Source: Euptelea pleiosperma (taxonomy: Eukaryota; Streptophyta; Magnoliopsida; Ranunculales; Eupteleaceae). Taken from it: 64,000 bases of DNA. The notes below the pieces were generated by a model, which searched no databases, was not told the origin of the DNA, and saw only the letters and a list, made by a program, of their open reading frames with translations. A program made the translations under genes and the position numbers. Shown piece by piece: positions 8,970 through 57,431 of the stretch (the first letter of the stretch is position 1; the number at the start of each line of letters is the position of its first letter). The stretch lies in the NCBI GenBank assembly GCA_035048495.1, contig CM068541.1, positions 5,897,929 to 5,961,928 on the forward strand, read 5' to 3'.

Positions 8970-9136
8970 GTCCAAGCCCATGACAAAAAAATGTTCAAAT
9001 CTAACAGCTAGCTGATTTTATGCGTAGGTTCACCAAGGGGTGGGCCAAACATTCATCCAAATAGAGGTCTCCATAAAAGTGTGTACGTGTCCGAACACCT
9101 CAGTTTTCTTCAATAGTTAGTTCTAGAAAGCCAGTC

Positions 9137-9372
9137 CAGAGGTCCTATACAAAGTTTGATAGGACCCCTTTCCTCAAATGCCACATGGCATATTTTTGGG
9201 TCCACTGACTCGTGAATGTTCGGCCCACTTCTTGATGAAGGCACACGCCAAAACACAGGTCGATTGGTGATTTATAGCCGTTGGATTTGAGCTTTTCCAT
9301 AAGTGGGTCGTAAAGAGTTGCCACGTGACATATTAGGAGGGGTTTACCAAACGTTGTATAGGACCCGGTCCT
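9137..9372. repeat. Foldback MITE with GGTCCTATACAA ends
   Basis: The left arm (GGTCCTATACAAAGTTTG, then TGCCACATGGCATAT) is matched by the inverted right arm (ATATGTCACGTGGCAAC, then GTTTGG and TTGTATAGGACC when reversed). It is about 235 bases long, non-coding, and sits just upstream of the FRIGIDA-like promoter. Confidence 0.6.
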
Positions 9373-9402
9373 ATACAACCCGGATTCATAAACAGGTGAT
9401 TA

Positions 9403-9481
9403 GGCCCAATCCATGATCAAATCCAATATTAATGAAAGATGGGCGCCCAATCCAATTTGATGGGCTCTAAAATAAAGCCCA
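9403..9481 (+). promoter_or_regulatory. Three site II (TGGGCY) elements
   Basis: GGCCCA at 9403-9408 (reverse of TGGGCC), TGGGCT at 9461-9466 and AGCCCA at 9476-9481 (reverse of TGGGCT) lie 170-250 bases upstream of the TATA box. Site II elements, bound by TCP factors, are known to drive plant ribosomal-protein and snoRNA genes, usually together with telo-boxes. Confidence 0.5.
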
Positions 9482-9652
9482 TTTAAACACTTTAGCCATC
9501 CGCGTGAAACCCTAATCACCTGTCAAAGGCGGCAAGAGGGTCCTCTTTTTTTTTGCGAGACAGAGGTTTATTACTTCCACACATCGTTTTCCATTCTAAA
9601 TAAGCACCAACCGTCGATATACATCTGACGGTGGAGATATAACGCCAAATTC

Positions 9653-9660
9653 TATAAATA
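9653..9660 (+). promoter_or_regulatory. TATA box of the FRIGIDA-like gene
   Basis: TATAAATA lies 279 bases upstream of the ATG, leaving a leader of about 250 bases. Confidence 0.6.
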
Positions 9661-9732
9661 ACAGTCGTCGCCGAACAAGAAATACAAGTCGTTTGTTTTA
9701 GGTCTGAAAACCCTGAGTTCTACTTCTTAGGG

Positions 9733-9774
9733 TTAGGGTTTCTTAGGAGAAGAGATTGTAGGTTTTTAGGGTTT
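9733..9774 (+). promoter_or_regulatory. Two telo-boxes in the leader
   Basis: TTAGGGTTT occurs at 9733-9741 and 9766-9774, shortly after the expected transcription start. Telo-boxes at this position, with upstream site II elements, are a known mark of plant ribosome-biogenesis genes. Confidence 0.5.
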
Positions 9775-9807
9775 CTTAGATCTTATCGTTAGATCTCAAT
9801 ATTTTAG

Positions 9808-9828
9808 ATGTTTCGATTCAGTTCTTAG
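9808..9828 (+). promoter_or_regulatory. Six-codon upstream ORF
   Basis: ATG to TAG encodes MFRFSS in the leader, 110 bases before the main ATG. It could lower translation of the FRIGIDA-like protein; this is inference. Confidence 0.35.
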
Positions 9829-9938
9829 TTCTAAGTTAGAACTTCTAACATTCTTGTGTGCACGTATATCTCCATAACCTGCTTTAGAGTTCTCGTTTTT
9901 TCTTTGTTGTTGTTTTTTTAGGAGTTTTCTCTGCAGAG

Positions 9939-12900
9939 ATGGCTTCAATGAAGTCGATTTCTGTAGAAACGATTTCAATGACGACGATTTCTGATGCTCT
10001 GAAATCCGTCGATACGAAGAAGGAGAACCTTCGTAAAGCATTTGAATGCCTCCAATCGCATTCGTCTTCTCTCGCTTCCTTCACCCTTCGATGGGAGGAT
10101 CTGGACGAGCACTTCGACTCGATCCATAAATCGGTTGAAGAACGCTTCAAGGAACTCGAATCGAAAGAGAAGCAATCGGGCAAAGGATCGATGCAGGAAG
10201 ATAAACCATCTTTACCAGCGAAAGAACTTGCGATTAAAACAGATGAGTCTGAATCGACGGTTCTGAGAGAGATGAAATCTTTCTGTGTCAAGATGGATGG
10301 AATGGGTCTGCGTTCATACATTATGAATCATCGTAAAGAGATTCAGATAATCCGGGATGAAGTTGCTGTTGCTCTTCAATCAGCGTCGGATCCAGCGAAG
10401 CTGGTTTTAGACGCCATGCAAGGTGTCTACCCTCTGAACTCTAAGAGAGAGAACAATGAATTGGCCGCTATTAGTAGAACTCGTATTCTTTTAATGGAGA
10501 AGCTTATGGTGATCTCACCGCATATTACGCCTCAGGTGAAGGAGAAAGCCAAGAAATTGGCTGTTGAGTGGAAAGGGAAGGTTAGCATGGAAGGTGAAAA
10601 TCCATTAGAAGCTTTAGCTCTATTGCAGCTTTTGGCTACCTATGGCGTGGCATCTGAATTTAATATAGACGAGATTTTAGATCTTCTTGTTCCTATTGCT
10701 CGGCGTAAGCAGGCGATCGATTTGTGTCGGGTGCTTGGTTTCACAGATAAAATTCCTGGTAAGTCTGGAATTTTAATCATGAGAAGAATTTCTAATTGGT
10801 TTTTTTTATTGTAGATATTGGATATTTTAGCTCCGTTTAAATGCACTAAGTTGTTTTCTTCTGTTTCGTAATTCCTTGAATCCCGTTCCTCTGCGTTCTT
10901 GTTCTTGTTTTAAAAAATTGGACTATTTGGGTTCTGACGGGGAAGGTTTTCTGGCTGAAAACCTCTCAACATGTTGGAGCGAACCAATTATGTTCGTAGA
11001 TTCCTTTGTAAACGTCACAGATAAAGCTCTTTGACGTTGTTGGTCCTCCCTTAATTGGGAGCTCCACCGTCGTAAGGGCGGTCTCATATTCCATTGCCTT
11101 GGGGAGCAGCGTTGCTGCCATTACCTCTTGGGACTGGCCATGAGACATACATTTGACTTAATTTCATCTATGATTCGGTTCATACATGAAACAGATTTTT
11201 ATTATCTTTTTGTATGAGTTCGAATATTAGTTTTTGGTATTTAATATGGAGTTTTGATTGATATTTAATTGCTATTAAATGGTTTTTTGGGGATCTATTT
11301 TTAATGGTATATTTGTGATCTGTGACGGGGAAGGTTTTCTGGCTGAAAATCACCCAACATGTTGGAGCGAACCGATTATGTTCGTAGATTCCTTTGTAAA
11401 CGTCACAGATAAAGCTCTTTGATGTTGTTGGTCCTCCCTTAATTGGGAGCTCCACCGTCACAAGGGCGGTCTCATATTCCATTGCCTTGGGGAGCAGCGT
11501 TGCTGCCATTACCTCTTGGGACTGGCCATGAGACATACATTTGACTTAATTTCGCGTATGATTCAGCTGAAAAACTGATTTATATGATCTTTCTGGGTCT
11601 TATTGGACATGTCATAATGTAGACAGGTGACATTCCCTTGAGCAAGAGCTGTTGGGATCGTACTATGTCAGTTTTTGTTTCTTTGATTTTCAACTGTCTG
11701 TAATGACCTTCCTCTGCTCTTGGTTAGTCTCTCTCTTGTCATTCCATTCAGTTCTAATGAGAACTTAGTCTGGGAATCTTTTCTTCGTTAGAATTACTAG
11801 TTCGTTTTTTTTTTTTTACTTTTTATTAGTAAATATTTGGTTTTTTATTGGCTATTAATTGATTTTTTGAGGGCTTTGTTTTAATGGTATATTTGTGATC
11901 TGTGATGGGGAAGGTTTCTGGCTGAAAATCTCCTAACATTGGAGCGATCCTATTATGTTTGCAGATTCCTTTGTAAACATCACAGATACAGTTCTTTATG
12001 TTGATGGTCCTCCCTTAGTTGGGAGCTCCTCCATCGTTAGGGCGATCTCATATTACATTGCCTTGGGGAGCAGCATTGCTGCCATTACTTCCTGGGACTG
12101 GCCATGAGATAAACATTTGATCTTTTGTCAAATTTGTTTTTATTGGTCCTATTTTGGTTTGAGACAGTACTAGGAATAAGAGCAACTCAAAATATCATAA
12201 ATAGTTGGAATAAAAGCAGATCTCTGTATTTGGAGTTGGAGTTTTTAAGGCATAAGCGATGGCAGTGTTTTAAAACTCGTCGAGGCAATTTGAAACTCTG
12301 CTGAGTTGACTCGACTCGGCGAGTTTCGAGTTGTCTCGAAATAAACTCAAATCGAATAAACAATGGGTTTGGTCCATTGTTTTCTGAAAAAAGACAACGG
12401 GTTTGGTGCGTTGATTTTTAGTCGACGCACCAAATAAGTTTTTTGAACACCTTGTCAACACAAATCAACCAAATCTTATAAATTTTGCTTATAAAAATAT
12501 GATATTTATATATTAATATTAATATACTACTCGAGTCAAGTTACTTCAGGTTGAGTTCGAGTCTTCGGGTTTTCAAACAGTGATTTTTTGTTGATGATGG
12601 GAAGAAATGACAGGTATGAGATGTGAGGATAGGTCATTATGGCTTGTGAGTATGTCAATCACTTTGTTTGCGTTGGAGTTGGCGGGGACAGATAATGGAT
12701 TAGAGCTATCGGTGAACTGACTGTGTCAATCAAAGCTTTTTCATTGTCATAATCTTCAGCTGTAATGACCTATCTCGCATATTGTCTAGTCTAATTCCAT
12801 CAATAAGATTGATTTCACTTTCACTCTTGCCTCAACTTTTGAATGTTGTAAATTTGTTTTCTTCTGGATGACAACATTTACCACTTTAGTTTTGGTGTCA

Positions 12901-14848
12901 TGACTTTTATTGTTCAATCATATTCTGCGATTTTATTATCTTGCTGTTACAGCTATCATATTGTTTCACAAAAAGTTCCATGACCCTCTTTTTCTTTGAA
13001 AGATAAAATTATCTTTCAAACAACTGATACTGCTGTGATTCAATTCTTCCATATGTTGGAGGGGCGCCACATTTTAAGCTATTGTTTTGAACTTGTATCG
13101 ACAGTATGAATTCCTTGTTTTGTGGGTCTCCCTTGTGTATTTAGTTTATGTGATGGGGAGGTCTTTTGGGTAAAAGATCTCCTTACCCGATGGAGCAAAC
13201 CTATTATGTTTGTACATTCCTTGTGTAAACATCACAGAAAAAGTTTATAACGTTGATGGAACACCCTTTTTGGGAGCATTCCTCCGTTTGACGGTCTCAT
13301 ATTCCATTGCCTTGGGGAGCAGCGTTGCTGCCATTACCTCTTGGGACTTGCCATGAGACGTACATTTGAATTAATTTCGTCTATGATTCAGCTAAAAAAA
13401 ACATAATTCATATGTTGTGGTTTTAACCTTGTTGCCAATGATGATATCAGTTAACAAAACACCATCTTTCGGGACTGAATGGCTTTCAAGCCTTGCTGTT
13501 ATTCTGCAATTCTGAGGCTTATTCTTGCACAATTATCTGTCCGTTTTATAGAATGTTAGATATTTTATGCCGAATTATCCTCTTGATACCTTTTTTTGTA
13601 ATTTTACCTGATGTTTGATTGCGATTTCTTATCACTTTTCTTATTTTGAATGTTGACCTTGCATTAGAATATGAAGTTCTGGATGGAACATCTAATCTTT
13701 TTGTTATTGGTCTTGCAACGTGATTTCAATGCTGTAGTATTCCTAGAGCTTAGTAGCTCCTCCATTCTTATTTCCTTACGGGTAGTGGGTTTTACAACCT
13801 TGAGTCGTTGCGATTCTTCTTTTCATGTGCCCCTATAGCATCTGATGCTATTGTCCATTTTAGTTCTCCGGCTGTAACTCTACGTGAATTATGCAATCAT
13901 GGAAAGTTAATCCGTTTTGCTGGTCTCATTGAAATCATTTGGTAGTCTAGCAGCCCCTTACTCTGGACGTGTCAATTTTCATTTTATATAGTTTTCTAGG
14001 GACAACGGTTTTCTTTTGTTCTCTGTACCCTCTTGAGGCAACAGTCTGAGACCTGAGGTTTTTGTTTGTGACTTCACTTGTTACAGATTTTATTCATAAA
14101 CTCAGTAGCAAGGGGAAACAACTTGATGCAGTTAAGTTTGTTTATGCGTTTGAACTGCTTGACAAGTTCCCTCCAGTACTCCTCCTAAAAGGTTACTTGA
14201 ACGAATCCAAGAAGGTCTCTCAGGAAGTTCGCAAGAGGGGAAATAACTCAACTCAATCACTGGTATGTTTTTTCTTGATTATCTTGCGACTCCCTTGCAA
14301 GTTTAAATTGCAAACAATCTTCTACATCAATGTTGTATAAACGTACGTGCCCACAGAATGAAGCCACTGCCAAAGAAATTGCTGCTGTAAAAGCGATAAT
14401 TAAGTGCGTCGTGGAGCACCAGCTTGAATCCCAATACCCTCTCGAAAGTCTTGATAAGCTCATTGAACAGTTAGAAAAGCAGAAGGCAGACAGGAAACGA
14501 CGTGCTGCTGCACCTGCACCTGCACCTGCACCTGCACCCAAGCCTAAGCAGCAGCAGCAGCAGCAAGCTGGAAACAAGCGCCGTCGACCAGCTTCCTCAA
14601 ACACTACAACCCACGACACTCCTAGTGTTGCTACAGCCACCCAGACTCATTACCAGCCGGGCTTCTTGTCAGATCGAGTGCCCCCATACTCGAGCTCATC
14701 GGCACAATATGGATGGGCAGGCACCGCTCCTACTGTTGCCCATTACATGAACCCTTCTGCATTGGGTGGTAACCCGCCGAGTTACGGTAGCCCATCTAGG
14801 TCCCACCTATACTCTTCGGAAGGGCCATTTAGCACCTGGTCGTTATGA
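9939..14848 (+). CDS. FRIGIDA-like protein (probably FRL3 class), three exons
   Basis: Exons are 9939-10758, 14087-14262 and 14357-14848, each bordered by GT and AG, giving 495 residues. The N-terminus (about 1-90) is a coiled-coil-like region (ALKSVDTKKENLRKAFECLQ). The Frigida domain follows at about 110-390 (MDGMGLRSYIMNHRKEI, LVLDAMQGVYP, LLATYGVASEF, GNNS, NEATAKEIAAVKAIIKCV). Next come a basic EQLEKQKADRKRR segment, Ala-Pro and Gln repeats, and a Ser/Tyr/Pro-rich tail. FRIGIDA promotes FLC expression and flowering-time control in Arabidopsis; FRL proteins are relatives, and FRL1/FRL2 act with FRIGIDA. The role here is not shown by sequence. The tail looks frameshifted: from 14829 the next frame (LAPGRYERS to SYRPSFYP, stop at 14912) matches the usual family ending better than the PFSTWSL read in frame. 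Intron 1 hosts four U17-like snoRNAs. Confidence 0.9.
10935..11154 (+). ncRNA. U17/snR30 H/ACA snoRNA, copy 1
   Basis: This intronic RNA is about 220 nt. The 5' domain closes with TGACG/CGTCA and is followed by the H box AGATAA. An extra hairpin (CTCCC/GGGAG) comes next. The 3' domain closes with GTCTC/GAGAC, then AT and an ACA box at 11149-11151, three bases from the end. Inside the 3' domain, directly after the first stem strand, is ATATTCCATT (11086-11095), and directly before the second strand is GGCCAT (11136-11141). These are the places and near-sequences of motifs m1 (AUAUUCCUA) and m2 (AAACCAU) that define U17/snR30, the snoRNA required for early 18S rRNA cleavage. From memory, plant 18S has AUGGGAUA, which pairs with UAUUCCAU, and UGGCC, which pairs with GGCCA. 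Confidence 0.82.
11321..11542 (+). ncRNA. U17/snR30 H/ACA snoRNA, copy 2
   Basis: Nearly identical to copy 1, with about 90 bases of shared upstream intron shared with copy 3. The 5' stem is longer (TGTGACG/CGTCACA). H box AGATAA, m1 ATATTCCATT, m2 GGCCAT and the ACA box (11537-11539) are all intact, so this and copy 1 are the best candidates for functional genes. Confidence 0.82.
11901..12118 (+). ncRNA. U17/snR30 H/ACA snoRNA, copy 3 (diverged, perhaps inactive)
   Basis: Same fold as copies 1-2. The 5' stem is TGTGATG/CATCACA, a compensated change from TGTGACG/CGTCACA, and the 3' stem is ATCTC/GAGAT instead of GTCTC/GAGAC, also compensated. The ACA box is kept at 12113-12115 and m2 is intact. 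However, m1 reads ATATTACATT and the H box reads AGATAC, both off consensus. It may be a decaying copy. Confidence 0.7.
12263..12582. repeat. MITE between snoRNA copies 3 and 4
   Basis: The ends CAGTGTTTTAAAACTCG and, reversed, CACTGTTTGAAAACCCGA are inverted copies. The interior repeats GACTCGGCGAGT-like words. No clear target duplication is seen. Confidence 0.45.
13149..13367 (+). ncRNA. U17/snR30 H/ACA snoRNA, copy 4 (most diverged)
   Basis: The 5' stem TGTGATG/CATCACA, H box AGAAAA, 3' stem GTCTC/GAGAC, m1 ATATTCCATT and ACA box (13362-13364) are all present. m2 reads TTGCCAT instead of TGGCCAT. The 5' domain differs a lot in sequence but keeps an internal hairpin (GGTCTTTT/AAAAGATC). 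13368-14086 downstream is ordinary intron with nothing recognised. Confidence 0.72.
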
Positions 14849-14912
14849 AAGGTCAATGGTTCCTGGTGGCTATGGATTGCTGCCTTCTTACCGGCCATCT
14901 TTCTATCCTTAG
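14829..14912 (+). other. Out-of-frame continuation of the FRIGIDA-like C-terminus
   Basis: Read one base later than the upstream frame, this stretch encodes LAPGRYERS, then GGYGLLPSYRPSFYP and a stop. This Pro/Tyr-rich ending is characteristic of FRIGIDA-like proteins. The shift lies near GGGCCATTTAG (14822-14832). It could be a real one-base change, or an error in the sequence. Confidence 0.6.
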
Positions 14913-17900
14913 CCAGCAGTTGTTCCATGATACTGGGAAAACCATTATATTTTGTACATGGCTACTCTATACTGGAAAACCATTGTGTTTTGTTCATGAC
15001 TACTCATTGTAAAGAGCTATAGTTTGTGAATTGAGATTTTGTCTATATTTTTCAACAATTATTCTACTGTCGTTTATTACCTCATTTTTCCTGTTTGGTT
15101 AACTTAGTTAAAATATTTGACCTCTTATTTTTCAAAAAATAAATGGTTGGATCTCTTTCTTGGAAAAATCTTTGATACACACTAGTGTATCAAAAATTTG
15201 ATGCAGAAGTCCTTCAAGTTGCCCACTTAGAACACTTTACCACACCTTGATGGATTCAGACACAAAAAAAGGGTGTGATTGTAGAGAGGACCAACAAGAT
15301 GGGAAGAGGAAGAGGGCTTGCAGAAAACTGTTTTTATTAATTTAAAGTAAAGCTTTCTAGTATAAAAGCTTGAGCCTAAAACATATAGTAACCGGCAAAT
15401 TGGTAGCCATTGGCACAATCTTATTGCGGGGATCCAACAGGGGTCCCATGTGAGACCATCATCTTCCTTCAGTCCACTATCTCCCATGAAAAGCAGACGT
15501 GTGATAACAAAATCAAGTGTGATTTCGGAATCTGTATATTTTGTGGTAAAATGAAATGGTATGAAAACAATGGGGACGGCTTTTTAAGATGAATATGACA
15601 TAGTTCTTTCAGAAATTCCAGATTCAGATCATGGAAGCTATAATACTACAAACAAAAAAAAAAAAAACACAGCGTAGAAAGCAACACAGTAATACATTGA
15701 TATGTGAGATTAGTTCTGGAATGGAGTCGAAAGTTGAGGCGAAAGTTTTCTCGTTGAAGGAAGCTGGGGCTAGCAGAGGGGATGGTGTCTCCACTCTACG
15801 ATGGACGGTTGACCCTAGATCAAGGCTAGTACCCAACAAGCAAAAAGCTGGTTTCAGTGGGTAGGAAGTCAGTTTTGACGGTGCTAGTAAGGATATTGTG
15901 CCATGCAAAGGAAAAAGCAACCGAGAACATGACTAACTAGCCAAAAATCAGCCATTGATTCATCTTCTCTGTGGGTACGCCAAAATGGGTGTACCCCGAA
16001 CCCATTTTGTTCAAAAGAATGGAAAAATTTGCACATTTTCTAACATGAGCAAATTATTCTGAACATGAACTTTTCTGAATTATTTATGGATTATCCAATT
16101 TTGAACATGAAAAATCATTTTATATGACAAAAAGTTGTCAATATTTTTTTTTGTACATGCTTTGATATGCATGTGCTTACATGGATGCCATATGAAAAAT
16201 TAAAAACCACGTAAAAATTCACGTAGAATAAAAAGTACGGCAATGATGCATAGTCAGCACTTAAGTGAAGAGATATAGGATTCGAGGTCAAGCGATAAAT
16301 CTGTAGGGCATGATCTTGATGCTATAAGGAGTTGTGAAAGTGTATCGTCGAGATGAGGCGTTGACATGAGACATCGACGCATATACATGCCTAGTAGATT
16401 GACATCTATCACTTGCCTTGTCCTTCAACACTTATATCTTTATTTTTAAAATAATTGTTGTCGAATTTTTGAACTCATTTTTTAACGACACTGTGCTTGA
16501 ACATTTCCCATACTATATTTTCGCCACTCCGAATTGTTAACTAGGAGCAGGACTGAGCCTTCAATGGGGCCCACTTGTGAATTCACGTGTATTATAAACC
16601 AACCTGATTAGATTATCATGATCGTCCGATTATCACTGGTCCACAAAAAGTTCATTGATAGTCATTTGGTTGTTGGGGTGATTTTTGGGTATGGCCGTCA
16701 ATTCCGAGGTCTGGATTGATGGTACCAATATATATATTCAATGGTTAGTAAATAATAAAAAATGATATAATTAATCATATTTCTTGAGAAAGAATCCAAG
16801 GTTTAAATACTTCCGTTATAATTGACATATAATGTTACCCAAGGTTTTAAATTGACTGTTACAACGGACATGGGGTGTTACCGTTATTTCCATTATACAA
16901 CGGACATGGGGTGTTACCGTTATTTCCATTATAATGCCTTGTTATTTTAACGGACAGTAACAAAAAATAAGGGGATCAAAATAATAATTTTCACAACTAA
17001 AGGCCGTTATATCCATTATAAGCCTCTATAACAGATTTAACAGCCGTTATTTGTGAGAATTAATAACGAATTTAAAATTTAAAATAAAAAAATGGAATTC
17101 AAATAAAAAACCATTCTGCACCCACCCTATAGTTGTGGAAGGAGGAAAAACTGCTTCATCGTATCTGGTGGGAGAAGGAAGAACTGCTTCATGATATCCG
17201 AGCTCTCAAAACATCGTAGATTTTGCTTATTCAAACAGCTTGGAATCAACTTGTTTGAAGAACTGCTTCATTGTTGTTGATTCCAGGCTGGAAGATGCAG
17301 CAAAGGCTGTTTGAATAACAGGTTTTTGTTTTGAGTTCTTGAACAGAAATGATGAATGAAAGTCACTAGGCCTAAAAGTCACAATTAAGAAACTTTTGAT
17401 GGCTATATAGTTTTGACTAAAATGGAACCAGATCACAGCCGTTTGATCAATGAAACTCTGCTTTGGATAGTTAGCAATATTTTGATTATCCGTCCAAACA
17501 AGTGATTGCAGAGTCTGATTTATTGACCGGCCAAAGTCAAATAAATTTTTTCCAAGATGTTCTCAGAGAACACCACCACTGATATCTCTCTGGAAGTTGA
17601 AGATTGCAAACAAAAAATAACAACAATAATGAACTTTTTTTCCTTAATTTCAGTGAATCTTCTGAGTCTGAATCTATAAATTCAGAATTTCGATCAAATC
17701 ATACATCGCAGTAAACTAGGCCTTCTAATTCTTTAAGAGGTTTATCTAAAAGATTCGCATTTCGTTTCCCCCAATGCAGTCGAGCAGTTTAACCGTCTAA
17801 GTTGAACGGTTTTCATAAAAATGTCAGGTTTGGGATGGATCTTAAAACACCGATTCCAATTATCGAGTTCTTTCTGACAATCAACACAATGACCACACAA

Positions 17901-42700: not shown

Positions 42701-43787
42701 GAAGAAAATTACTTTGCTGAAAGAGTTACTCAGGAACTCCCAAAAACATGGGAAAGACTACTGAAATGTTTTTCTTTCTTTTTTTTTAAATTCGATGATA
42801 AAAACAGCCACCGCTCCACTCACGGCTTACATTTATATATGGACATACCAACTTGACTTCCTAATTCTAAAATAGCTAAATTTAGTTCCTACATGAGTTT
42901 TTAAATTCTTCTAAAACCTTGCAATAAATCACTTTTAACTATCAAACTCGTTTACAGCTTTAAAATAGTAATTGTCTAAAAGACTAAATAGCAACTTATC
43001 CTCTTTTGTATTCTTCTTGACTTTCCATTTATGAAAACCATCAGTTGAGTATTGCATCACTAATGCATTTTTGTCAACAAAGTAGTAGTATTGGTAAATG
43101 TTTCAGAAGGTTTGAGTCTGGACCCCCTTTAGGTGACAGCAACTACTGTATGTGAGACTCAAGACTATAGGTTTACCCTTTAAGATATGCACCCGCAATC
43201 TTTTGAGCAAGATTGCTTCTACAATTTTTTCTTTTAAGATCTATGGTGATTCTTATCCTTCTCTCATGTTACGTAGGAGTTACTACAAATGCACAAATGC
43301 TGGATGCCCAGTTAGGAAACACGTGGAGAGGGCATCACACGATCTGAAAGCAGTTATAACCACATACGAGGGAAAACATAATCACGATGTACCCGCTGCA
43401 AGGACTAGTAGCCATGACACAGCAGGGCATGCAATATATAATACAGCTTCGAATGGCATTTTGAGGACTAGATTAGAAGAAAGTGACACAATTAGCCTTG
43501 ATCTCGGGGTTGGGATCAGCTCGAGTCCTGAAAATATATCAAATGAGAAGCTGCAAACACCGGATGCAGAACCTGTCCAAAGCCAATCCTACATTGCTGG
43601 TCCTGATTATAGTAAGGCGATTCAAGCAACCCCAGTTTCAGCATACAATGGTGGTTCAAACGATGGTGCAGATCGGTATGGATCTAGGGAAGACCGAGTA
43701 GAAAGCTTTAGCTTCAAGATACCACCTTTAAACCATTCCTCTAACCCATACCGGCAGAACATGGGAAGATTAATACTGGGTCCATAA
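33729..43787 (+). CDS. WRKY20: Group I WRKY transcription factor (WRKY20-like), six exons
   Basis: Exons are 33729-34064, 35378-35572, 39674-40244, 40344-40509, 40609-40767 and 43277-43787, all with GT/AG borders, giving 645 residues. The N-terminal Ser-Pro block ([16 protein letters not shown], then [17 protein letters not shown]) is the D-domain, a known MAP-kinase target in group I members. The first WRKY domain (WRKYGQK at 285-291) has a C2H2 finger ending HDHP. A basic nuclear-localisation signal, KRRKK, lies at about 421-425. The second domain (WRKYGQK at 461-467) is interrupted after NPNPR by the conserved R-type intron and resumes [10 protein letters not shown] to HNHD. The protein should bind W-boxes in the nucleus. 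The [30 protein letters not shown] core and the DLGVGISS motif in the tail point to WRKY20; WRKY2-type is the alternative. Intron 2 contains a LINE and a MITE. Confidence 0.93.
35837..36180. mobile_element. MITE with TATGTAACRAGGACA ends in WRKY intron 2
   Basis: TATGTAACAAGGACAC on the left faces GTCCTCGTTACATAG on the right. Flanks CTGCTACAC (35828-35836) and GTGCTACAC (36181-36189) match at 8 of 9 bases, suggesting a Mutator-type insertion. 36190-37231 is intron with nothing recognised. Confidence 0.65.
37245..38986 (+). mobile_element. 5'-truncated L1-type LINE in WRKY intron 2
   Basis: Broken frames encode the reverse transcriptase core ([11 protein letters not shown] near 37305, [27 protein letters not shown]), then [15 protein letters not shown] and [11 protein letters not shown]. 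The zf-RVT end follows ([18 protein letters not shown]). It ends with an A tail at 38978-38986. An exact 13-base duplication, GATTCTAAATTTT, flanks it (37232-37244 and 38987-38999). Stops and frameshifts make it inactive. It lies in the sense orientation of the host gene. Confidence 0.92.
40768..43276 (+). other. WRKY intron 5
   Basis: A 2.5-kb intron splits the second WRKY domain. Apart from AT-rich stretches and short frames I see no element or RNA in it. Confidence 0.6.
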
Positions 43788-55676: not shown

Positions 55677-57431
55677 TCATCTCCATGCACAAGAGACGAC
55701 CAAATCCCTGTTCTTCCAGCCAAGATAGAGAGCTCCGTCTCTCTCTTCAAGTCTGTAGTTCTTGCTGTATCGCTCTAACAAATTCTTGATGGTGGCATTG
55801 ACCACTGAGTTCAATGGGTATGGAGTAAACCCAGCCATGGAGAACCGTGACCTCCACTTCCCAAGAAGCTCATGTCGTTCCACCCTCTCAGCCCCCTCAC
55901 ATGCTATGATATTGACCACATCCCTGGCTAGGCAGTGCTGCTCTACATTGATCCGTTCCTTGTGGTCCCTTGGGAGGGTCACATCTATCGACTCGAACAT
56001 GGCTGTATAATAGTTCAGCGTCTCAACAAACCGGGGCAAGAATGGGGCGGTGTTGGTGTTAGATTCTTGCTCTACGAGGGTCACCACCATGGGCGACAAG
56101 CTCTTAATCAATCTCAACAACCTATCCCGGTGGTTCTGAGTGCTCACGCTCTCGTCTGGCATGTGGTGCAGCACATATGGGAAATTCACAGCGAGAGCCT
56201 CCCCATATCGAATTCCAAGATTCTGGAGCTCAACATCACAACCAGACATGGCTGCGGCATGGAACTCAAAGGGCACCTTATATGACTCAGCAAGTTTCGA
56301 TAGCTTCTGCCCCACGATCTGAAGTCCACCACCTCGGGCATAAGCTGAATTTGAATCATCGACACCCGTGATACGGATGTACGGGGGCCCACCAGAGCGA
56401 GACGCAAGAGCCTGGATCAAGGTGATCCACTGGCTGCCTTGTGCAATCTGGAAGTCAATGATGTGGATTCGTTTTGCATCCTTCACAGCTTCTGCTATGG
56501 CACCATTTGCAGACATGTATCCAAACTTGAAGTATGGGCAGACCTCATAGAGGATGTGCATGTACGAGAGGAGTTCAGCACTTGCAGGTTCATTGCACTT
56601 AAGGGCTTTGTAGATGGAACTCCCTGAGGAGGCCAACTTCGCAACAAGCCCTTCCAACATGTAGGCACCCAACCGCTGGATTGGCTCTCCAGAGACTGAC
56701 ACCATCTGCCTTAACTCAGCCATCAACAGATCCACCATCACATGATCATTATCTGATACAGCTTCTGCACAGGCAATGAGCATCTGTTTCAAGTCCCCTC
56801 TAGGGATCATCTCCATCATTTGTTCCCTATTCTCTGGCTCTGGCGGTGAGGCTTGGTTGGCTCCACCCTGGAAGGTGTCATCGAAGCTGTCAACTATATC
56901 TGAATCAGGTCCAAGCATCGCAGTTTCCAATTCTCTCAGCTTGTTCCTCAGGTCAACACTGCCTGTTATGCAGGACGCACTTATAGAGGATCCATAGGTG
57001 TTGTCAGGGGAATGATGTAGGTTCATGGGGTATGACTGAGACTCTTGCTGTGATACAGGGCTCCCATTAGGTGAAAAACTGAGGGTAGATGGGGAATTGT
57101 AAACCGTGTAACCACCGCCGGTTGCCGAGGATGACTCCAAGGTGCAGTACTGTTCAGGAGAAGTCTGCACGGAAAAATGGGTTCCTTGGCTGCTCTCATC
57201 AGAGCATAGTTGGTGGTCTGAAGTTCGGAAATTCTGAGGCAAGCAATAGGATTCGACCTCTTGAATGGGTTGGTAATACAAACTGTTGGACCCACCCGAA
57301 CTTCCAGGCTTCTGAGAAGCTTGCATCGAAGAATAACCTACTACATGACTTAAGCCAGCCACTTGAAACCCAGGGTAATACTGATAGTCCTTTCCGGAAG
57401 AATCACTCTCAGACCGAAACTGAGAACTCAT
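55677..57431 (-). CDS. GRAS transcriptional regulator, PAT1/SCL13 branch
   Basis: One intronless frame of 584 residues begins at the ATG at 57431. The N-terminus (1-205) is Ser/Tyr/Gln-rich and probably disordered, with the branch motif DLRNKLRELETAMLGPDSDI at 160-179. The GRAS domain (about 212-584) is complete: first leucine heptad (LKQMLIACAEAVSDNDHVMV), VHIID as IHIIDFQIAQGSQW at 322-335, second leucine-rich region, LHHMPDESVS at 421-430, LVEQESNTNTAPF, the IDVTLPRDHKERINVEQHCL block and the SAW ending (WRSRFSMAGFTPYPL to SCAWR). PAT1-branch proteins act in phytochrome A signalling and stress or wound responses (known for the group); which member this is cannot be decided. Promoter and leader lie to the right, probably with a long leader intron. 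Confidence 0.94.
   Translation of the reverse strand: MSSQFRSESDSSGKDYQYYPGFQVAGLSHVVGYSSMQASQKPGSSGGSNSLYYQPIQEVESYCLPQNFRTSDHQLCSDESSQGTHFSVQTSPEQYCTLESSSATGGGYTVYNSPSTLSFSPNGSPVSQQESQSYPMNLHHSPDNTYGSSISASCITGSVDLRNKLRELETAMLGPDSDIVDSFDDTFQGGANQASPPEPENREQMMEMIPRGDLKQMLIACAEAVSDNDHVMVDLLMAELRQMVSVSGEPIQRLGAYMLEGLVAKLASSGSSIYKALKCNEPASAELLSYMHILYEVCPYFKFGYMSANGAIAEAVKDAKRIHIIDFQIAQGSQWITLIQALASRSGGPPYIRITGVDDSNSAYARGGGLQIVGQKLSKLAESYKVPFEFHAAAMSGCDVELQNLGIRYGEALAVNFPYVLHHMPDESVSTQNHRDRLLRLIKSLSPMVVTLVEQESNTNTAPFLPRFVETLNYYTAMFESIDVTLPRDHKERINVEQHCLARDVVNIIACEGAERVERHELLGKWRSRFSMAGFTPYPLNSVVNATIKNLLERYSKNYRLEERDGALYLGWKNRDLVVSCAWR

Follow-up and report, generated by a model that had tools for sequence, protein, structure and literature searches.

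The FRIGIDA-like gene and the snoRNA cluster in its first intron

The window analysed here, a 64,000-nucleotide stretch of Euptelea pleiosperma DNA, carries a FRIGIDA-like gene (9939-14848) whose three exons join into a 495-aa open frame. Exon 1 scores 180.4 bits against Pfam PF07899 (Frigida; cut-off 25.7), which places it in this family, and the best five matches of the protein, among the 120 of 136 matches listed, come from Protea, Aquilegia, Thalictrum, Tetracentron and Nelumbo with 58-60% identity, these five being FRIGIDA-like by name in at least one source; their origin suits a plant that is probably an early-diverging eudicot. The FRIGIDA-like intron that the sequence-only reading had given as the host is indeed intron 1, lying between in-frame exons. 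It contains four repeats of 217-221 nt each, and a SNORD96 box C/D snoRNA, which scores above the Rfam gathering threshold and hence belongs to its Rfam family, starts 64 nt past the last repeat (copy 4). The features are as follows.

9939..10758, plus strand: coding exon 1 of the FRIGIDA-like host gene (Pfam PF07899, 6.2e-53; splice junction in frame)
10759..14086, plus strand: intron 1 of the host gene, GT...AG, housing the snoRNA cluster (exons 1-3 joined form an open frame)
10934..11154, plus strand: putative U17 copy 1 (c1), every motif intact
11019..11024, plus strand: H box AGATAA of c1, read from the sequence
11026..11079, plus strand: internal hairpin of c1 (alifold helices 5-6)
11086..11094, plus strand: m1 of c1, ATATTCCAT, from the motif pattern
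11136..11141, plus strand: m2 of c1, GGCCAT, 7 nt ahead of ACA (11149-11151)
11322..11542, plus strand: putative U17 copy 2 (c2), every motif intact, 96.8% identity with c1
11407..11412, plus strand: H box AGATAA of c2
11474..11482, plus strand: m1 of c2, from the motif pattern
11524..11529, plus strand: m2 of c2, from the motif pattern
11902..12118, plus strand: putative U17 copy 3 (c3), m1 altered to ATATTACAT, H box AGATAC
12050..12058, plus strand: altered m1 of c3, without full match in the 18S copy L033
13149..13367, plus strand: putative U17 copy 4 (c4), m2 altered to TGCCAT, H box AGAAAA
13349..13354, plus strand: altered m2 of c4, pairing less well with rm2
13432..13520, plus strand: SNORD96 box C/D snoRNA, also within intron 1 (Rfam RF00055, 69.3 bits, gathering 43)
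14087..14262, plus strand: exon 2 of the host gene, from the joined frame
14357..14848, plus strand: exon 3 of the host gene, to the stop (Pfam PF07899, 1.1e-12; joined frame)

These repeats had been read as four U17/snR30 snoRNA copies with one set of motifs. The four repeats are real and have the U17 architecture, but only copies 1 and 2 are intact, with the full motif set (2/4), while copies 3 and 4 are each altered in one of the two motifs that pair with rRNA, m1 in c3 and m2 in c4. The claimed H box AGATAA is confined to copies 1 and 2: in copy 3 it is AGATAC, which departs from the consensus ANANNA, and copy 4 reads AGAAAA, which conforms to it, as do copies 1 and 2 and a further copy, C6a, from the paralogous gene described below. 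The m1 motif reads AUAUUCCAU in copies 1, 2 and 4, and its AUAUUCC, on the basal side of the 3′ pocket, is found in these copies and in C6a but is absent from copy 3, which reads AUAUUACAU. Likewise, m2 is GGCCAU in copies 1, 2 and 3 (UGGCCAU at this place, as in C6a) but UGCCAU in copy 4; the literal AAACCAU is not present, its CCAU being retained. The spacing from m2 to ACA is exactly 7 nt in all four copies and in C6a, and a rule that m2 lies seven nt before ACA was reportedly given by Atzorn and co-workers in 2004. A pattern loosened so that all four copies fit (ATATTNCAT, 35-60 nt, CCAT, 7 nt, ACA) has 4 occurrences in the window, and 0/100 shuffles contain it. The Rfam U17 match that had been envisaged did not appear, neither at the gathering threshold in the whole window nor at E <= 10 in 9000-15000, which we read as a gap in Rfam and not as a refutation.

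Consensus fold, covariation and pairing with 18S rRNA

The succession of domains claimed for the repeats agrees with the RNAalifold consensus of the four window copies and C6a (65 pairs), in which a 5′ domain with two hairpins has its closing stem directly before an unpaired H box, followed by an internal hairpin, a 3′ hairpin and ACA plus three bases, the RNA ends being predicted positions. In the 3′ hairpin, m1 and m2 stand opposite one another above the basal stem, which is fully paired (7/7 positions) in all four window copies and has one mismatch in C6a. The predicted folds of single copies are less clean than the consensus. The minimum-energy fold of c1 (z = -3.94) does agree with it, the H box and the ACA tail staying unpaired between the expected domains, but this fold represents only 0.004 of the ensemble, and in the centroid the 5′ and internal regions are paired differently. 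When slightly shorter ends are taken, c1 and c2 form pairs across the H box, and c3 and c4 adopt other folds; in addition, the closing stem is not formed when the 5′ domain of c3 is folded alone. The 3′ hairpin was seen in every fold run of a window copy except that of c3 with slightly shorter ends, and in the predicted fold the CCA of m1 is able to pair with the UGG at m2.

Base pairs covary in every domain of these copies. Among the five related sequences counted (the decayed copy C6b being left out, though aligned), both sides have changed in 7 of the 65 pairs: three are in the internal hairpin, and the others are spread over the two hairpins and the closing stem of the 5′ domain and the basal stem of the 3′ hairpin. 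This corresponds to 11 both-side-changed cells against a shuffled mean of 4.9, a value of 11 being reached by 0/500 shuffles, and structures slid along the alignment as a control give 0-3 both-side-changed pairs. Note that the pair count alone is modest, 7 such pairs being reached by 14/500 shuffles, and that further pair types are not raised over the shuffles (452/500).

The 18S copies of the same genome were found by a DNA query, and those used are all truncated or decayed. One of them, L033:1320-2519 (C10), is an isolated 18S copy without its 5′ part and scores 1088.9 bits with Rfam RF01960. In this 1200-nt stretch, m1 (UAUUCCAU) pairs fully, over 8 nt, at a single place, 1504, which we take from its 18S context to be rm1 of ES6, and GGCCA has 10 fully paired places, including 1540, which lies 28 nt downstream of rm1. 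The connector between the two sites forms a 7-bp hairpin. With the m1 and m2 of copies 1, 2 and C6a, both helices form on L033, with one G-U each; the proposed pairing with same-species 18S rRNA therefore holds for these three copies on a truncated 18S, but not for copies 3 and 4, which lack the full complementarity to rm1/rm2. The m1 pairing falls from -7.7 to -1.9 in c3, and the m2 pairing from -9.5 to -5.8 (or from -6.8 to -4.1) in c4. A bipartite site with wobbles allowed occurs somewhere in 99/2000 shuffled 18S sequences, and the evidential weight thus rests on the position of the site, whose identity as rm1/rm2 is presumed.

In plant 18S rRNA, rm2 reads UGGCC (UUGGCC). The copies retrieved here read UGGUC in L033, UGGCC in L035 and UGGCU in L034, the latter two copies being decayed. 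The intact plant rm1...rm2 pattern occurs 0 times in the whole assembly, so the functional rDNA seems not to have been assembled, and rDNA probes found nothing (0/20) when the opening 9,900 bases of 20 of the 247 contigs were searched. The pairing energy of the m2 GGCCAU is -9.5 kcal/mol with UUGGCC (L035) and -6.8 kcal/mol with UUGGUC (L033), against -2.7 and -4.0 kcal/mol, respectively, for AAACCAU. The m2 of the repeats thus differs from AAACCAU together with its 18S target, and GGCCAU fits the plant rm2 better.

An H box, an ACA box and a 3′ pocket are common to every H/ACA RNA, and they would also suit an ordinary guide for pseudouridylation, either an orphan or one with an unknown target, in which the likeness of the pocket to m1/m2 is accidental. 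We consider this improbable, since the best canonical pairing of the distal pocket in the 1200-nt 18S stretch of L033 is 6 bp (3+3), whereas the basal m1/m2 reach 8+5 bp at the rm1/rm2 site, and since the 7-nt spacing from m2 to ACA and the internal hairpin fit U17.

Paralogous loci, constraint and copy history

A FRIGIDA-like paralog (C6; exon 1 amino acid identity 191/267) carries C6a in the same intron position. Its intron holds one intact U17 copy (C6a), one decayed copy (C6b), three fragments and two SNORD96 (66.2 and 58.4 bits with Rfam RF00055), the second of which (58.4 bits; L009:4997-5222, minus strand) has a U17 fragment ahead of it; here U17 and SNORD96 seem to have been copied jointly, as one unit. 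At a third locus (C4), U17 is present as a truncated copy and SNORD96 as a remnant, and the 19.8 kb analysed there contain no FRIGIDA-like exon. A 145-nt query (11031-11175; internal and 3′ parts of c1 plus flank) gave 8 genome matches, 4 in the window, 3 on C6 and 1 on C4, a number that is a lower bound; the whole of c1 searched against the C6 and C4 regions added two further fragments on C6. SNORD96 was found at 4 genome places, each next to a U17 copy or fragment.

The occurrence of this linkage on both paralogs indicates that it is older than the duplication of the host gene. In addition, several U17 copies were probably already present before that duplication, since C6a is nearest to c4 (85%) and two C6 fragments are nearest to c1 and c2. 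Copies 1 and 2, with 96.8% identity, are a recent duplicate. No weight was given to an ML tree built from ten copies and fragments, in which the supports are weak (25-87). Note that the m1 change to ATATTACAT is found both in c3 (12050-12058) and in the truncated C4 copy (L011:7314-7389), although the latter is nearest to C6a in its remaining sequence; the shared change is either parallel or unexplained.

Between c1 and C6a, the 3′ domain is identical at 73/75 positions, the 5′ domain at 65/87 and the part from the H box to the internal hairpin at 44/61, and the fourfold sites in exon 1 of the two host genes are identical at 62/84. The 3′ domain is therefore conserved far above the fourfold sites (Fisher p = 2.8e-5 for c1/C6a), which means constraint on this domain; the corresponding values against C6a are 73/75 for c2, 68/75 for c3 and 71/75 for c4. 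A genome-wide search (613 Mb) for the exact m1/m2/ACA pattern gave copies 1, 2 and C6a, 3 places that all lie in FRIGIDA-like introns; the reversed control gave 0.

The many altered or broken members of the family (copies 3 and 4, C6b, the three C6 fragments and the C4 copy), together with a whole-genome DNA search that passes over very common words, could also be explained if every copy in intron 1 were a relic, the working plant U17 lying elsewhere with another sequence. This explanation comes out slightly less probable than a chance-resembling guide, and is opposed by the retention of every m1/m2/ACA letter in copies 1, 2 and C6a, by the 3′ domain conservation far above the fourfold sites, and by the two exact genome patterns, neither of which gave a further candidate that combines m1, m2, the spacing and the stem. 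The four tandem copies and the solo copy on C4 might suggest a repeat, mobile or tandem, that has no function as RNA, but the compensatory base-pair changes and the small size of the family (at least 8 genome matches, found at 3 loci that all have SNORD96 close by) make this very improbable.

The AAACCAU form of the pattern was found at 3 genome places, where the basal stems pair at 2, 4 and 5 of 7 positions and the hairpin is absent from the folds; these places were rejected as candidates, and none of the 3 has a Rfam snoRNA match.

The proposed plant U17/snR30 and its known counterparts

In yeast, U17/snR30 is needed for building the small ribosomal subunit. Vertebrate U17 is intron-encoded, like the plant repeats; the animal host genes are RCC1 or ribosomal protein genes, and the plant host here is FRIGIDA-like. 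According to published descriptions, vertebrate U17 (SNORA73; 203-222 nt) is similar in length to the plant repeats and has AUAUUCCUA as m1 and AAACCAU as m2, where the plant repeats have AUAUUCCAU and GGCCAU, respectively; unlike vertebrate U17, the plant repeats are without Rfam match. Yeast snR30 has 606 nt, and the plant RNA would have about one third of that length, be intronic and be present in several copies. In yeast, m1/m2 pair with rm1/rm2 of ES6 with a helix in between, which the geometry on the plant L033 resembles.

Of the two sources on the snR30 mechanism, PMC7991803 and PMC12095548, the latter describes the yeast rRNA between rm1 and rm2 (806-836) as a helix in a three-way junction with snR30. 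In PMC7601244, m1/m2 are placed on the basal side of the 3′ pocket, and a 2020 table of 14 organisms, no plant among them, gives AAACCAU as m2 in all; no word starting with ‘plant’ occurs in the main text of that paper. Excerpts of PMC7464842 mention snR30/U17 in general terms only. Plant intronic snoRNA clusters likewise hold several snoRNAs, both C/D and H/ACA, in one transcript, and U17 and snR30 are absent from the main texts of the surveys PMC5122169 (plant snoRNA families) and PMC8575768. A 2021 survey gives U17/snR30 as not found in Arabidopsis. Among the titles and abstract openings listed by searches of open-licence papers, none announces a plant U17, and an earlier report may exist elsewhere.

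Taken as a member of the U17/snR30 family, the locus shows the anatomy, m1 and the bipartite 18S pairing, and lacks the literal m2 sequence and an Rfam match; the former is counted as compensated because of the matching rRNA difference. The anatomy, the covariation, the constraint and the pairing with a same-genome 18S copy together give good support to the U17/snR30 identity. We therefore propose, with strong confidence, that the repeats are genes for a plant U17/snR30 box H/ACA snoRNA, processed from the FRIGIDA-like intron along with SNORD96. Copies 1 and 2 and the one copy in the paralogous gene (C6a) are probably functional; for copies 3 and 4, decay or weakening is probable, although they could alternatively keep weak or other roles. 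In the proposed mechanism, the intron would be transcribed and cut to free RNAs of ~ 220 nt (about 217-221 nt); the mature U17 RNA would bind the H/ACA core proteins Cbf5, Gar1, Nop10 and Nhp2, and m1/m2 would keep rm1/rm2 of ES6 apart in early 90S assembly, as a putative role in 18S processing. Several copies may raise the dosage.

The wider point, larger than the setting in a FRIGIDA-like intron, is that plant U17 had been reported missing. We lean, with less confidence than for the identity itself, towards a history in which plants never lost U17/snR30, which would have been missed by homology and Rfam searches through the change of m2 to GGCCAU with its 18S partner. It would persist as a tandem array in FRIGIDA-like introns beside SNORD96, older than the FRIGIDA-like duplication, and plants would assemble the small subunit with the ES6 chaperone that also serves yeast and animals. 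That m2 and its rRNA partner both differ from the yeast and animal forms is natural evidence for the importance of the pairing, and a concrete sequence, structure and 3′-domain model makes the plant U17 question testable in any plant.

A Pfam search for the Utp23 sensor gave no match in the genome, nor in the controls, and is therefore uninformative. Bacterial/archaeal and viral contigs scanned for the U17 core and for plant 18S gave nothing, as expected for a plant sequence. Elsewhere in the window, a 584-aa open frame (55680-57431, minus strand) encodes a full GRAS domain, and another open frame (43152-43784, plus strand) a partial WRKY domain.
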